NCBI RefSeq assembly: GCF_019173455.1
Contig: NZ_JADPQH010000001.1
Span: 310,001-374,000, forward strand
Length of the DNA: 64,000 nt
Origin: Nesterenkonia sp. Act20
GTDB taxonomy: Bacteria; Actinomycetota; Actinomycetes; Actinomycetales; Micrococcaceae
Direction of reading: 5' to 3'
Part shown: piece by piece, positions 26,653-32,238 of the stretch
Layout of the letters: every line of letters starts with the position of its first letter
Numbering within the stretch: position 1 is the stretch's first letter
Program-made: the position numbers and the translations under genes
Notes under the pieces: model-generated
Told to the model about the DNA's origin: nothing
Databases searched by the model: none
Seen by the model: only the letters and a program-made list of their open reading frames with translations

Positions 26653-29600
26653 ATGAGTTCACCGGCCGAGCGCTATGCAGAGTCACGTCGACGAGCAGCA
26701 GAGGCCAAGTCTCAGCTCGGCGTCTTCCGCGCGTCCCAGGCATTCGACCTGGATGACTTCCAGCTTCAGGCGTGCCGCCATCTCGAGGCGGGTCGAGCCG
26801 TGCTCGTCGCGGCTCCCACCGGGGCAGGCAAGACCATCGTGGGTGAGTTCGCGGTCCACCTGGGCCTCGCCCACGGCACCAAGACCTTCTACACCACGCC
26901 GATCAAGGCGCTGTCGAACCAGAAATATCAGGAGCTGGTGGAGGACCACGGCTCTGAGCGTGTGGGGCTGCTGACCGGTGACACATCCATCAACTCCGAG
27001 GCGCAGATCGTGGTGATGACCACCGAGGTGCTGCGCAACATGCTCTACCAGGACTCTGCCACCCTCCGTGATCTCGGGTACGTGGTGATGGATGAGGTGC
27101 ACTATCTGGCGGATCGATTCCGCGGCGCCGTTTGGGAGGAGGTCATCATCCATCTTCCCGAACATGTGCAGGTGGCGGCCCTCTCGGCGACCGTCTCCAA
27201 CGCCGAGGAGTTCGGTGCGTGGTTGGACACGGTGCGTGGGGAGACCTCGGTGGTCGTCTCCGAGCACCGCCCCGTTCCGCTGACCCAGCACATGCTGGTG
27301 GACCATCAGCTCCATGATCTCTTCATCTCGGAGGACGACGGCGCCCCCGGCACTCTGGTCAACCCCGAGCTTCAGCGGCTGGCCCATCACTCCCAGGCAC
27401 CGATGTCTCGGCGCAGCGGCGGAAACCGCTCCCGGGGCAATGGTCGTGGCCGCGGACCCCACCGGGGTCCGAACCGGGGGCCGAACCGAGGGCCGGGCCG
27501 CGGAGCCGGAGACCGCTCCCGTGATGGAGACCCGCGTCGCCAGACGAGCAGCAGCCCGGCCGGCAAGCGTGGGGGAGGGGAGGTCTCGGGCATCTCCGGT
27601 TCGGCCGCGGGCCGCCCCCGGCTGAACCGTCCCAAGATGATCCGCGCGCTGGACCGCGAGGGTCTGCTGCCATGCATCGGGTTCATCTTCTCCCGCGTGG
27701 GATGTGAGGCGGCGGTCGAACAGTGCCTCAATGCCGGGATCGTGCTGACCACGCGTGAAGAAGCTGCCGAGATCACCTCCCGGGTGGAGCAGATGGGCTG
27801 GGAGCTGCCGGCCGAGGATCTCTCGGTCCTCGGGTTTGACAGCTTTCGCGAAGCCCTGATCAACGGCGTAGCCGCCCACCATGCCGGCATGCTTCCTCCG
27901 TTCAAGGAACTCGTCGAGGACATGTACGCCGAGGGCCTGCTCAAGGTCGTCTTCGCCACCGAGACGCTCGCCCTGGGAATCAACATGCCGGCGCGCACCG
28001 TGGTGCTGGAGAAGCTGGACAAATTCAACGGCGAGTCCCATGTGGACATCACCCCGGGGGAGTACACCCAGCTGACCGGTCGCGCCGGTCGGCGCGGAAT
28101 CGATGTGGAGGGCCACGCCGTCGTCGTCTGGCAGCCGGGCATGGACCCGCGCCAGGTCGCAGGATTGGCGTCGAAGCGGACCTACCCGCTGAATTCGAGC
28201 TTCAAGCCCTCCTACAACATGGCGGTGAACCTGACCGCCCAGTTCGGCCGACGTCGAGCCCGTACGATCCTCGAGTCCTCCTTCGCCCAGTTCCAGGCCG
28301 ACCGGTCCGTGGTCGGCATCGCCCGGGACGTGGCCAAGCGCGAGTCCTCCCTCGCCGGATACGAGGAGGCGATGACGTGTCACCTCGGCGATTTCCGGGA
28401 GTATGCCGCGCTGCGCCGTCGCCTCAACGAGGCGGAGAAGGACCAGGCCAAGTCGCGTCACCGGCAGCGGCGACGAGAGATCATCCGAGTATTGGCCGCG
28501 CTGCAGCCCGGGGACATCATCGAGGTGGCCGGCAAGCGTGGCTTCGGGGAGTCCCTCGTGGTGCACAGCGCCCCCGAACATGACCCCAGACCTGGAGTCA
28601 TCACCACCGATGGCAAGTTCCGCAATGTCACGGCGGAGGACTTCGGACAGCCCCCCGAGGTCATCTCCAGCATCCGGCTCCCGCGCAAACCGCAGGTGAA
28701 GGTTCCGAAGATTCGTCGTGATCTTGCCGCCTCAATGAGAGCTGCGCTGCATGAACGGGTTCCGGCCCGCAGCAGCGCCCCGAGTGCCGGTTTCGGCTTC
28801 GTCGAGGAGGAGCCCGACTCTGAGTCGCTCGAAGACCTGCTGGCGCAGCTGAGGCGCCACCCCTGCCACGGGTGCAGCGAGCGGGAGGATCATGCGCGCT
28901 GGGCCGAGCGCGGATGGAAGCTCCAGCGAGAGATAGATCAGTTGAAGGTCAAGATCGATCGGCGCACCGGCTCCATCGCGAAGATCTTTGACCGCGTCTG
29001 CGGGGTCCTGCATGAGCTCGGTCATATGGAAGTGGTGGACCCCGAACTCATGCCACAAGTCGGCCCACCCGAGCTGCTCCAGGACGCCAGCGCAGCGCCG
29101 GGTCCGCAGAGCGCCGGATCCTCCGACGACGAATGGTACGCGGCAGAATTCGCGGTGACCGACCGGGGGCAGCAGCTGCGACGGATCTACGGGGAGCGCG
29201 ACCTCTTCACCGGACTGCTCATGGAGCGTGGCGTGCTCTCAGCCCTCTCCGCCCAGGAGCTTGCAGCGTTCGCCACCGTTCTGGTCTATCAGGCCAAGCG
29301 TGAGGACGAGGGTTCGATGCCCGTCATGCCCACCAAACGTCTCGGGCAGGCCGCCCAGACCGGCCTTGAGGTTCATGCTGAACTTGAGACCCTGGAGAAG
29401 CGCCACCATCTCGAGCCCACCGCTGCTCCGGAACTCGGACTGGTCCTGCCCATGTACGCCTGGGCCGGCGGTCAGAGTCTGCGCAATGCGCTGAACGATT
29501 CACCGCTGGCCGCCGGGGACTTCGTGCGGTGGACCAAGCAGTGCATCGACACCTTGGATCAGCTCGCAAAGATCCCGCATACCCCGGCGAAGCTCGCCGC

Positions 29601-29694
29601 CCGCTGCCACGAAGCAGTGGAGCTCATCGGCCGGGGAGTGGTGGCATACTCCTCCGTGGCCTATCAGAACCTGGAGGAGCCCACAGATGACTGA
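26653..29694 (+). CDS. helY: HelY-type DEAD/DEAH RNA helicase (Ski2/Mtr4-like)
   Basis: A 1013-residue superfamily 2 helicase. Motif I is APTGAGKT (about residues 55-62), motif II DEVH, motif III LSATVSN and motif VI QLTGRAGRRGIDVEGH. The C-terminal half is the DSHCT-type arch and helical region of Ski2-like helicases. Between the two RecA lobes, about residues 250-300, lies a Gly/Arg/Pro-rich insert (for example RGRGPHRGPNRGPNRGPGRG) that looks like an RG-type RNA-binding linker. Likely role is RNA unwinding in degradation or ribosome metabolism. The stop overlaps the next gene by 8 nt. Confidence 0.94.
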   Translation: MSSPAERYAESRRRAAEAKSQLGVFRASQAFDLDDFQLQACRHLEAGRAVLVAAPTGAGKTIVGEFAVHLGLAHGTKTFYTTPIKALSNQKYQELVEDHGSERVGLLTGDTSINSEAQIVVMTTEVLRNMLYQDSATLRDLGYVVMDEVHYLADRFRGAVWEEVIIHLPEHVQVAALSATVSNAEEFGAWLDTVRGETSVVVSEHRPVPLTQHMLVDHQLHDLFISEDDGAPGTLVNPELQRLAHHSQAPMSRRSGGNRSRGNGRGRGPHRGPNRGPNRGPGRGAGDRSRDGDPRRQTSSSPAGKRGGGEVSGISGSAAGRPRLNRPKMIRALDREGLLPCIGFIFSRVGCEAAVEQCLNAGIVLTTREEAAEITSRVEQMGWELPAEDLSVLGFDSFREALINGVAAHHAGMLPPFKELVEDMYAEGLLKVVFATETLALGINMPARTVVLEKLDKFNGESHVDITPGEYTQLTGRAGRRGIDVEGHAVVVWQPGMDPRQVAGLASKRTYPLNSSFKPSYNMAVNLTAQFGRRRARTILESSFAQFQADRSVVGIARDVAKRESSLAGYEEAMTCHLGDFREYAALRRRLNEAEKDQAKSRHRQRRREIIRVLAALQPGDIIEVAGKRGFGESLVVHSAPEHDPRPGVITTDGKFRNVTAEDFGQPPEVISSIRLPRKPQVKVPKIRRDLAASMRAALHERVPARSSAPSAGFGFVEEEPDSESLEDLLAQLRRHPCHGCSEREDHARWAERGWKLQREIDQLKVKIDRRTGSIAKIFDRVCGVLHELGHMEVVDPELMPQVGPPELLQDASAAPGPQSAGSSDDEWYAAEFAVTDRGQQLRRIYGERDLFTGLLMERGVLSALSAQELAAFATVLVYQAKREDEGSMPVMPTKRLGQAAQTGLEVHAELETLEKRHHLEPTAAPELGLVLPMYAWAGGQSLRNALNDSPLAAGDFVRWTKQCIDTLDQLAKIPHTPAKLAARCHEAVELIGRGVVAYSSVAYQNLEEPTDD

Positions 29695-30934
29695 CAATGG
29701 TGCCGCACGCCGCGCGCGCGTGCTGACCAACGGCACGATCCATTCGCCTACCGAGCCCTATGCGGACGCCATGCTCGTCGAAGATGGGTTGATCGCCTGG
29801 GTCGGTTCCGCGGAGACGGCGGAGACCTTCGATGCCTCCACTCTGGAGGTGGAGGACCTTGACCGGGCCCTGGTCGCGCCGGCCTTCGTCGGTTGGGCGG
29901 ATGTCGCCGGGGGCGGCTCGTCCGGGCCGGACAGCGCGGGAGTCCAGGGACTCGCCGCTGCCGCGGTGCAGGCACTCGACGCTGCGGCGGCCCAGGGCTG
30001 TGGGGCCGTCCGGCTCAACGTGGAGCTCAGCGCCACAGGCCTGAGTGAGCCGTCTGCGTCAGAGACGCTGGAGGCGGTCTTCTCCGCTGCGGCAGCGCAC
30101 GCGGTGCGCGCCTACCCGGTGGTCACACTCACCGGGCTGAGTCTGCTCGACACCGGCGATCGGATGGAAGCCCTGGAGAGGGCCGTCTCCATGCTGGGGC
30201 CGGTGGATCTGCTGCTGGACCGGCCCGCGGCCGTCCAGCTCCTCGTCGGTGAGGTCGTGGATCAGCTCCTGGAGGTCCGGTTGGTCGCAGCCCAGGCCAA
30301 GCGTCAGCTTCTCCTGCGCGTGGCCGACGAAGGTGAGAGCGCTACGAGCAACCAGGCCCCAGCTCCTGCTGAGCTGGTGGCGGCGCTGGTGGACTCCACC
30401 TCGGCGATGCGCGCCCAGCGTCGAAGCACTCCGGGCGGACTGCCCACCGTCCTCGTGGGCTTCGACTCCGCAGAGCGTCAGGACTGGGAGGCGCTGCTCA
30501 ACACCGGGGTGCAGGTGCTGATCCGCGGCCGTGGCCACCTGGCCACGGCGCTGAGCGTAGGGGTGCCGGTCAGTGCGGTCGGTTCGCCGGACGAGAACCC
30601 ATGGGCGGTGGTGACGCGTCACGTCCACCATGAGCAGGATCCCGTCTCGGTGCGGGCTGGCTTCAACGCCCAGACCCGCGGGGCGTACAGGTCCCTGCCG
30701 GAGGCCAGCGGCACTGCCGCCACCGCCGCCCAGCTGGACCCCGGGGCCCGGGCGACCTACGGAGTCTGGGAAGTGGATTCCCTGGCCGTGCAGACGCCTG
30801 ACTCCCGGACCGCGGCATGGAGCACCGATGTGCGCGCGCGCACGCCTCTGCTGCCATACCTCGATGGCGAGACGCTGCCTGCGCTCCGCGCAACGGTGAT
30901 CGATGGTGACCAGGTGCACCCGCGCACCAGCTGA
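29687..30934 (+). CDS. Amidohydrolase-like protein lacking the metal-binding HxH
   Basis: A 415-residue protein with the amidohydrolase N-terminal beta-sandwich: RVLTNGTIHSPTEPYADAMLVEDGLIAWVGS. Where active enzymes have PGFVDxHxH, this one has APAFVGWADVAG, and I see no His pair later in the barrel region that could replace it; LLLRVADEG stands where a metal histidine is expected. Metal-dependent hydrolysis is therefore unlikely. The ATGACTGA overlap with helY implies translational coupling, and ppm1 follows 71 bp later. It may be a pseudoenzyme with a binding or scaffolding role; the inference depends on my alignment by eye. Confidence 0.72.
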   Translation: MTDNGAARRARVLTNGTIHSPTEPYADAMLVEDGLIAWVGSAETAETFDASTLEVEDLDRALVAPAFVGWADVAGGGSSGPDSAGVQGLAAAAVQALDAAAAQGCGAVRLNVELSATGLSEPSASETLEAVFSAAAAHAVRAYPVVTLTGLSLLDTGDRMEALERAVSMLGPVDLLLDRPAAVQLLVGEVVDQLLEVRLVAAQAKRQLLLRVADEGESATSNQAPAPAELVAALVDSTSAMRAQRRSTPGGLPTVLVGFDSAERQDWEALLNTGVQVLIRGRGHLATALSVGVPVSAVGSPDENPWAVVTRHVHHEQDPVSVRAGFNAQTRGAYRSLPEASGTAATAAQLDPGARATYGVWEVDSLAVQTPDSRTAAWSTDVRARTPLLPYLDGETLPALRATVIDGDQVHPRTS

Positions 30935-31005: not shown

Positions 31006-31740
31006 GTGAAGATCCTGACGATCATCCCCACCTACAACGAGATCGACGCACTGCCCGGCACGGTGCAGCGGCTTCGCGCTGCGGTGCCGGAGTCGGATGT
31101 GCTCATCGTCGACGACAACAGCCCCGATGGAACCGGTGATTTCGCAGACGAGCTGAGCCGGCAGGATGACCAGATCAACGTTTTGCACCGCACCTCCAAG
31201 AACGGACTGGGCGGGGCCTATATCGCGGGGTTCGGCTGGGGGCTCGAGGCGGGGTACGACGTGCTCGTCGAGCTCGATGCGGATGGGTCTCATCAGCCCG
31301 AGCAGCTGCCGAGCCTGCTGGCAAAGATCGATGAGGCCGACCTCGTGATCGGTTCGCGCTGGGTCCCCGGCGGGTCCGTGGTGAACTGGCCGCTGCATCG
31401 CGTAGCCATCTCGCGTGCAGGCAGCCTCTACTCGCGCACCCTGCTGGGCCTGAAGGTCCGCGACATCACAGCAGGGTTCCGAGTCTTCCGACGCTCAGTG
31501 CTCGAGGAGATCGATCTCACCAGCATCGAATCGGTCGGCTATGGCTTCCAGGTGGACATGACCTTTCGCGTGGCCAGCATGGGCAAGACCATCACCGAGG
31601 TGCCGATCACGTTCGTCGAGCGCACTCAGGGAGTCTCCAAGATGAGCTCAGACATCATCGCCGAGGCCATGGTCAATGTGACCCGATGGGGGCTCGCCGC
31701 GCGGGCCAGGACCTTGAAGTCCCGGCTGAGCGGCAGCTGA
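31006..31740 (+). CDS. ppm1: Polyprenol-phosphate mannosyltransferase (GT2)
   Basis: Transfers mannose from GDP-mannose to polyprenyl phosphate, giving the lipid donor for outer mannosylation of lipoglycans and proteins. The 244 residues match the soluble DPM1-like domain: LTIIPTYNEIDALPGTV, IVDDNSPDGTG, KNGLGGAYIAGF, VELDADGSHQPE (the DxD-type metal site) and ITAGFRVFRR. No membrane or acyltransferase domain is attached. Start is a GTG with GAGG upstream; TAGACT near 30954 may be the -10. Confidence 0.94.
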   Translation: MKILTIIPTYNEIDALPGTVQRLRAAVPESDVLIVDDNSPDGTGDFADELSRQDDQINVLHRTSKNGLGGAYIAGFGWGLEAGYDVLVELDADGSHQPEQLPSLLAKIDEADLVIGSRWVPGGSVVNWPLHRVAISRAGSLYSRTLLGLKVRDITAGFRVFRRSVLEEIDLTSIESVGYGFQVDMTFRVASMGKTITEVPITFVERTQGVSKMSSDIIAEAMVNVTRWGLAARARTLKSRLSGS

Positions 31741-31826: not shown

Positions 31827-32168
31827 TCAGGCGGCCTCGCCGCGGCGCTCCCGGAGCAGCTTGAGCCGATCCTCCAGAATCACTTCAAGGTCCTCAGTGG
31901 AACGCCGTTCCAGCAGCATGTCCCAGTGAGTTCGTACGGCCTTCTCCGGCTCGGCATCGGGACGGTCCACATCGACGCGCAGACCTTCCTTACCCGTGGG
32001 GGAGACCCAGGTGGCGGGCACCTCTGCCTCGGCGGAGAACATCACCCGCATGATCTCACCGTCTTCGGTGCGGTACTCGATCTCCTGGCGGGGTGCCGGC
32101 TCGACACCCTGCTCGGTTTCCATGGACTGTGCGCCGAGGCGCATGCCACGCAGGCTGCGATCGCTCAT
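31827..32168 (-). CDS. rbpA: RNA polymerase-binding protein RbpA
   Basis: Actinobacterial transcription factor that binds the principal sigma factor and RNA polymerase and stabilises open complexes. The 113 residues match the family along their length: MSDRSLRGMRLGAQSMETE, EPAPRQEIEYRTEDGE, FSAEAEVPATWVSPTGKEG and the sigma-interacting C-terminus (HWDMLLERRSTEDLEVILEDR with the following basic tail). The ATG at 32168 has GGAGG upstream. Both a TAGAGT hexamer and a sigma-R-type element precede it, which suggests stress induction. Confidence 0.97.
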   Translation of the reverse strand: MSDRSLRGMRLGAQSMETEQGVEPAPRQEIEYRTEDGEIMRVMFSAEAEVPATWVSPTGKEGLRVDVDRPDAEPEKAVRTHWDMLLERRSTEDLEVILEDRLKLLRERRGEAA

Positions 32169-32211
32169 CGATATTCCTCCAGTGTGATGGGCAGACTCAT
32201 TCTCGGTGTAC

Positions 32212-32238
32212 AACTCTAGAGCACGGCCGAGTTATTCC
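32212..32238 (-). promoter_or_regulatory. Sigma-R-type promoter of rbpA
   Basis: Read leftward: GGAAT (32234-32238), 19-nt spacer, GTT (32212-32214). This matches the ECF sigma-R consensus GGAAT-N18/19-GTT; rbpA is a known sigma-R target in Streptomyces coelicolor. A TAGAGT -10-like hexamer (32213-32218) overlaps and could serve SigA. Confidence 0.6.

Follow-up and report, generated by a model that had tools for sequence, protein, structure and literature searches.

Immediately downstream of the RNA helicase gene helY, Nesterenkonia sp. Act20 encodes a 415-residue protein that resembles an amidohydrolase stripped of the residues with which such enzymes hold their metal. What such a protein might do, whether it is being kept or lost, and whether its function is bound up with that of HelY are the questions raised by this locus. 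They are addressed here by computational analysis of a stretch of 64,000 nucleotides (contig NZ_JADPQH010000001.1, positions 310,001 to 374,000; hereafter the window), the relevant features of which are collected in Table 1. Among the papers listed by searches of an open literature library, none dealt with this gene pair or, by title, with this family.

The wider cluster around the 415-residue gene consists of helY, the pseudoenzyme gene, ppm1, and rbpA, where ppm1 denotes the ppm1-like glycosyltransferase gene at 31006-31740. An initial annotation of this DNA had placed the start codon of the pseudoenzyme gene inside the end of helY, and that reading is correct: the helY stop codon TGA lies at 29692-29694, so that the ATG at 29687 gives an overlap of 8 nt. 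The same overlap recurs in 10 of 20 congeneric loci under the start-choice rule of this analysis. The protein would probably be translated from the helY message by coupling in the window, and translation signals, together with the selection described below, are the sequence-level pointers that speak for expression of the gene.

Table 1. Features of the helY region, in window coordinates.
Feature	Coordinates	Strand	Basis
helY, DSHCT-type DEAD/DEAH RNA helicase, 1013 aa	26653-29694	+	ORF; Pfam DEAD, Helicase_C, DSHCT
GGAGGAG, likely ribosome-binding site within the helY end, 7 nt 5' of the ATG	29673-29679	+	sequence reading
8-nt overlap of the pseudoenzyme ATG with the helY end	29687-29694	+	sequence reading
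Metal-free amidohydrolase-fold pseudoenzyme, 415 aa, ATG start	29687-30934	+	ORF, comparison, model
N-terminal half of the composite beta-sandwich, residues 10-66	29714-29884	+	model strands E10-14, E28-32, E35-40, E53-57, E62-65
Site of the lost HxH, residues 64-75, APAFVGWADVAG	29876-29911	+	sequence comparison
Compact eight-strand barrel without metal ligands, residues 67-313	29885-30625	+	model strands
C-terminal part with closing sandwich strands, residues 314-415	30626-30931	+	model
Most conserved family segment, residues 368-392, VQTPDSRTAAWSTDVRARTPLLPYL, candidate binding loop, partly low pLDDT	30788-30862	+	conservation, model
ppm1-like glycosyltransferase family 2, next gene	31006-31740	+	ORF
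rbpA-like gene, opposite strand	31827-32213	-	ORF; named by eye from sequence

Fold and metal site of the 415-residue protein

The assignment to the amidohydrolases, originally made by eye, is supported by both profile comparison and predicted structure. The closest named relative, an uncultured Nesterenkonia, is 85-86% identical. Amidohydro_3 (PF07969) has no match in the window protein at E values up to 1 and matches none of 22 Nesterenkonia-group members at E values up to 0.01; none of these 22 reaches a Pfam cut-off, and Pfam finds in the window protein a sub-threshold fragment of a composite-domain model and nothing more. NCBIfam gave no match for the window protein, the sole member tried. 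Two full-length relatives encoded at the same gene position match PF07969 at 227-230 bits, and an hhalign comparison of the 22 Nesterenkonia-group proteins with 19 full-length forms gave a probability of 100, with 129 C-terminal columns aligned and 44% identity. These profile comparisons show homology to full-length Amidohydro_3 proteins of the YtcJ type in the same gene position. Within the source genome, the protein used as a query at E values up to 0.001 retrieved only itself, and a profile composed mostly of full forms (A3) retrieved a distant full-length relative (G000:C1:1424266-1425516, E 3.5e-35).

Searches of the PDB gave chance matches only with the single sequence (phmmer) and no structure below E 0.09 with a Nesterenkonia-only profile; profile A3 matched 3icj and 3igh at E about 1e-16 because it contains full-length rows. 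An AlphaFold2 model of the window protein (alignment A2; pLDDT 91.1, pTM 0.91) places sandwich strands at both ends of the chain and eight barrel strands in between, with the reservation that alignment A2 held 18 full-length rows, which may have guided the modelled barrel. VIA-align of the model returned amidohydrolases, the best being 6nbo (Z 30.2, rmsd 3.0, 332 residues aligned). As predicted, the fold is that of the amidohydrolase superfamily, a composite beta-sandwich with a (beta/alpha)8 barrel. The eight modelled strands speak against deletion of the barrel in the Nesterenkonia form and point instead to a barrel that has been compacted.

The 60 Micrococcaceae loci that we compared, picked among the best-scoring rows of the family search, comprise 21 full forms (532-569 aa) and 39 short forms (338-454 aa), lengths that are approximate because the start lying closest to the helY stop was taken for each. 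Where full-length relatives carry P(G/A)FVDSHxH, the window protein carries APAFVGWADVAG, and the loss of HxH that had been read from its sequence extends to every ligand column. These columns are the two His of HxH, the His of FHxIGD, the His of LEH, and the Asp of SDAP, at which the residues of the window protein are A, V, R, G, and S. All five ligands are present in 21/21 full forms, and the short forms have the ligand in 2, 0, 1, 0, and 3 of 39, respectively, with the HxH pair kept in none of the 39. HxH is likewise absent from every one of the 23 genomes sampled from the window's genus, the Nesterenkonia group (20 in the locus table plus G188, G276, and G283, with loci L009, L006, and L010). 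The initial annotation had allowed that intact HxH in all close homologues would reduce the gene to a decaying copy; the loss is instead common to the sampled homologues, which makes a decaying copy unlikely. Judged by its sequence, the protein lacks the residues (HxH, another two His, and an Asp) by which an active metal-dependent amidohydrolase is recognized.

That the protein is still an enzyme, with its metal site displaced or with a reaction that needs no metal, is very improbable. Seven His remain, of which H19, H284, and H312 are invariant across the 20 congeners counted, and the invariance of H284 and H312 is the observation in favor of such an activity. However, these two positions are His in 0/19 other short forms, and the predicted secondary structure suggests that they should sit at opposite ends of the barrel. 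No displaced site is therefore apparent, in agreement with the earlier remark that no later His looks like a metal ligand.

Full and short forms across the order

The family search matched 291 of 295 Micrococcaceae genomes; three of the remaining four have a close relative by profile, and one (G271) gives distant matches only. Named records tell the same forms apart: among the best 80 of 417 loci, of which 78 were readable, HxH is found in 40/40 full forms and 0/38 short forms. The short forms without it belong to Nesterenkonia, Garicola, Rothia, Micrococcus, Citricoccus, and some Kocuria, and the full forms with it to Arthrobacter, Sinomonas, Glutamicibacter, Paeniglutamicibacter, and other Kocuria, along with a single Micrococcaceae MAG and a single record under the name Vibrio. 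The title of the latter (L131; WNZI01000004.1) names Vibrio cholerae strain 35D, but its helY-amidohydrolase-ppm1 locus is of the Arthrobacter type, and the record is probably mislabelled or contaminated.

A quick helY tree, with branch support by SH-aLRT only, requires at least three changes of form as drawn, two of which are forced by starred branches. Its topology suggests one change on the Nesterenkonia/Micrococcus/Citricoccus side and one or two on the Rothia/Kocuria side, with full-form Kocuria lying between. The full form would be the ancestral state.

Both forms recur in other families of the order (149 genomes). Full forms bearing HxH were seen in loci of families f2, f5, f6 (genus g91), f7, f8, f14, f15, f16, f17 (genus g48), and f18. 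Apart from the full form of g91, family f6 has a short protein, matched in 60/60 genomes; the 20 f6 loci inspected all lack HxH and all carry the C-terminal loop WSTDxRAxTPxLP (the WSTD loop). Family f11, where the gene was matched in 42 of 47 genomes, has gone further: its protein of about 250 aa (226-248 residues when counted from YSxxDP as far as the stop, 28 loci) retains the sandwich parts and has nearly lost the barrel. Once strand 1 has ended, 49-57 residues lead up to the GVP motif (measurable in 7 of 12 f11 loci), as against 222 in the window protein. Near-complete loss of the barrel is confined to this family. HxH occurs in 0/30 f11 members and a WSTD-type loop, by regular expression, in 28/30; one of the two misses carries WSVDPRSRTPMLP, and a WSVD variant of the loop occurs in two members (L205 and L270). 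As an observation on match extent, the hits in three genomes of genus g11 (L297-L299) end before the WSTD end of the profile, at positions 23-501 of 545.

The picture has exceptions. Genus g57 of family f17 (L219 and L220) has a full-length protein with neither HxH nor WSTD loop, encoded away from helY, which on sequence grounds is a separate route to metal-site loss. Relatives with HxH and without the WSTD pattern occur in f16 (L211), f15 (L217 and L218), and f8 (L287); with the f17 members, they show that the loop is not universal. Five f11 genomes (L291-L295) have helY and no match to the gene; directly 3' of helY they carry a gene that by eye resembles lnt, and the roughly 1 kb read there shows nothing of the pseudoenzyme gene. 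The job of the pseudoenzyme gene is thus dispensable in these five genomes and apparently in G271 of the Micrococcaceae. In several lineages, the protein was shortened while the composite beta-sandwich and the WSTDxRAxTPxLP loop stayed.

Selection, the retained parts and candidate partners

The earlier description of the gene as conserved is upheld by its substitution pattern. By the Nei-Gojobori method, in pairs that share members and so are not independent, dN/dS of the short forms is 0.10-0.39 in 12 of 13 pairs (dS is saturated in the thirteenth), indicating purifying selection; two usable full-form pairs of three gave 0.10 and 0.23, and helY in the same short-form pairs gave 0.04-0.12. The long frame is uninterrupted in 23/23 genus genomes and in 21 of 22 named Nesterenkonia-group records. 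The remaining record (L112, the Nesterenkonia pannonica DSM 29786 chromosome) has a broken gene frame and a helY that ends early, both perhaps sequencing errors. With catalytic residues lost and purifying selection retained, the protein is, as far as its sequence tells, a pseudoenzyme.

A gene in slow decay, held in place by its position in an operon, would also show a dN/dS above that of helY in the same pairs (0.21 versus 0.05 for the window and L072), and the repeated shortening, the five f11 genomes that lack the gene, and the broken frames of L112 are in keeping with it. We nevertheless regard this explanation as quite unlikely, given the intact frames across the genus, dN/dS values that lie well below 1 and near those of the full-form pairs, an invariant loop, and the retention of the same parts by different lineages. 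The narrower idea of a decaying copy is disfavored by dN/dS and by genus-wide retention.

Constraint is distributed unevenly along the chain. Seven pairs from the window's subgroup gave dN/dS of 0.29-0.49 for residues 76-240, which shows partial relaxation in the middle of the protein, 0.04-0.17 for residues 241-340, and 0.07-0.21 from residue 341 to the end; the N-terminal part gave 0.05-0.22 in this subgroup, except for L072/L089 (1.08, with almost no synonymous change). Across the 39 short forms, mean column identity reaches 0.82 in residues 368-392 and falls to 0.24 in the least conserved stretch, residues 86-240. The WSTDxRAxTPxLP motif is thus the most conserved stretch of the protein, yet it is the least confidently modelled: residues 375-380 are the one place in the window model where pLDDT drops below 50 over at least three consecutive residues, and the low-pLDDT runs of a full-form model are 1-10 and 523-535, the second of which is the same loop. 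The low confidence may come from a shallow alignment rather than from a missing partner.

The barrel might serve as a ligand sensor that binds a small molecule without turnover and signals through the C-terminal loop. The eight predicted barrel strands and the invariance of H284 and W267 in the genus sample agree with such a role; however, a large share of the barrel evolves faster than the rest of the protein, and f11 has dispensed with most of the corresponding segment (about 49-57 residues remain, in 7 of 12 loci, against 222). We consider a sensor unlikely.

The reading that we favor, as reasonably probable, is that this member of the amidohydrolase superfamily is a pseudoenzyme without metal and that its composite domain still serves a non-catalytic function, probably one of binding. 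Loss of the ligands, a predicted fold that is kept, retention across the genus sample, and purifying selection are all shown for this protein, and the job of the 415-residue chain probably needs no chemistry. The retained function would be binding rather than catalysis, carried by the composite domain and the WSTDxRAxTPxLP loop, and the loop could become ordered on a partner, either a second copy of the protein or one of the products encoded by the helY-ppm1-rbpA cluster.

HelY is the first candidate among these products because of the probable translational coupling to helY. The initial annotation had gone further and raised the idea of a helicase accessory; in the strict sense, such a protein would bind HelY and alter its RNA-helicase or ribosome-linked work. 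The part of this claim that stands is the gene order within the family. Besides the overlap of the gene start with the helY end, helY lies directly upstream, at -29 to +176 nt, in 60/60 Micrococcaceae loci, and no more than 176 nt away in 77 of 80 named loci (the best 80 of 417), the exceptions being L169, at a distance of 759 nt, L139, which lies at a contig edge, and L112, with broken frames. It also adjoins the gene in 12/12 f11 loci and in 4/4 f8 loci, the latter with full forms. HelY of Streptomyces coelicolor is reported as ribosome-associated and WblC-dependent (PMC7157823).

The accessory role itself fares less well. The gene is coupled to helY in the loci sampled from the window's family and is not always found with and beside it elsewhere: in 8 of 10 f6 loci helY ends some 4 kb upstream and in the other two it was not seen, other DNA separates the two genes in f7 and f14, and no helY stands beside the gene in the loci read of f2, f5, f15, f16, f17, and f18. 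The five f11 genomes described above have helY without the gene. The ppm1-like gene is an equally constant neighbor in Micrococcaceae, downstream on the same strand in 60/60 loci, and rbpA-like matches occur in 59/60 (the exception is L044). Deletion of helY in Streptomyces is reported to have a marginal, twofold effect, on tetracycline sensitivity alone (PMC7157823). Given the f6 distance, the helY-only f11 genomes, the constancy of ppm1, and the marginal deletion phenotype, HelY is a candidate partner only, plausible as such, and a strict accessory role has a modest chance of being correct, somewhat better than that of the sensor.

HelY residues 250-309 (window 27400-27579) form an RG-rich insert between the two helicase domains. 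The RG-rich stretch varies across 60 HelY proteins, with a maximum R+G fraction per 60 residues of 0.28-0.72. A tie between this insert and the short form was considered and set aside; it is suggestive across genera, but within genus g6 there is no clear difference between short members (0.40-0.57) and full members (0.45-0.47).

More broadly, and with less assurance than we attach to the binding pseudoenzyme itself, we tentatively hypothesize that, in one actinobacterial order, the composite sandwich and WSTD loop of an amidohydrolase served a second purpose besides catalysis, one linked to the helY-ppm1-rbpA cluster. One lineage after another would then have given up the metal site, and one family almost all of the barrel as well, until what remained was a stand-alone adaptor made of the sandwich. 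The remaining protein would act on HelY or a neighbor without chemistry.

Relation to known systems

Amidohydrolase pseudoenzymes are already known, and the part that specialists would not expect is the natural deletion series within one conserved gene cluster, which runs from about 550 aa with the ligands through 340-450 aa without them to about 250 aa almost without a barrel. This series reveals the portion of the protein that selection preserves and opens the second function to direct testing. It also points to a possible partner for HelY and tells what kind of protein is encoded by a gene family without a Pfam name in the Nesterenkonia group.

The window protein shares common ancestry with Amidohydro_3 (PF07969; solved relatives 3icj and 3igh), including the composite sandwich and barrel. 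Unlike Amidohydro_3 proteins, it has no metal ligands, is about 120-150 residues shorter, and does not match the PF07969 model. Among the Foldseek matches of its predicted structure are CRMP1, CRMP2, and CRMP5 (4b3z, 6jv9, and 4b91), members of a group of non-enzymatic eukaryotic proteins from the dihydropyrimidinase branch.

By analogy, the closest precedent for the proposed mechanism comes from Pseudomonas aeruginosa, whose pseudo-dihydroorotase (pDHO) is a dihydroorotase homologue without activity and is reported to be needed for aspartate transcarbamoylase activity (PMC7053772). The likeness would be one of analogy only, an inactive amidohydrolase-fold chain kept for its role in the complex of another enzyme. 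The Pseudomonas protein differs in belonging to another subfamily, as a 45 kDa chain, and in having a known partner, where the window protein has a candidate one.
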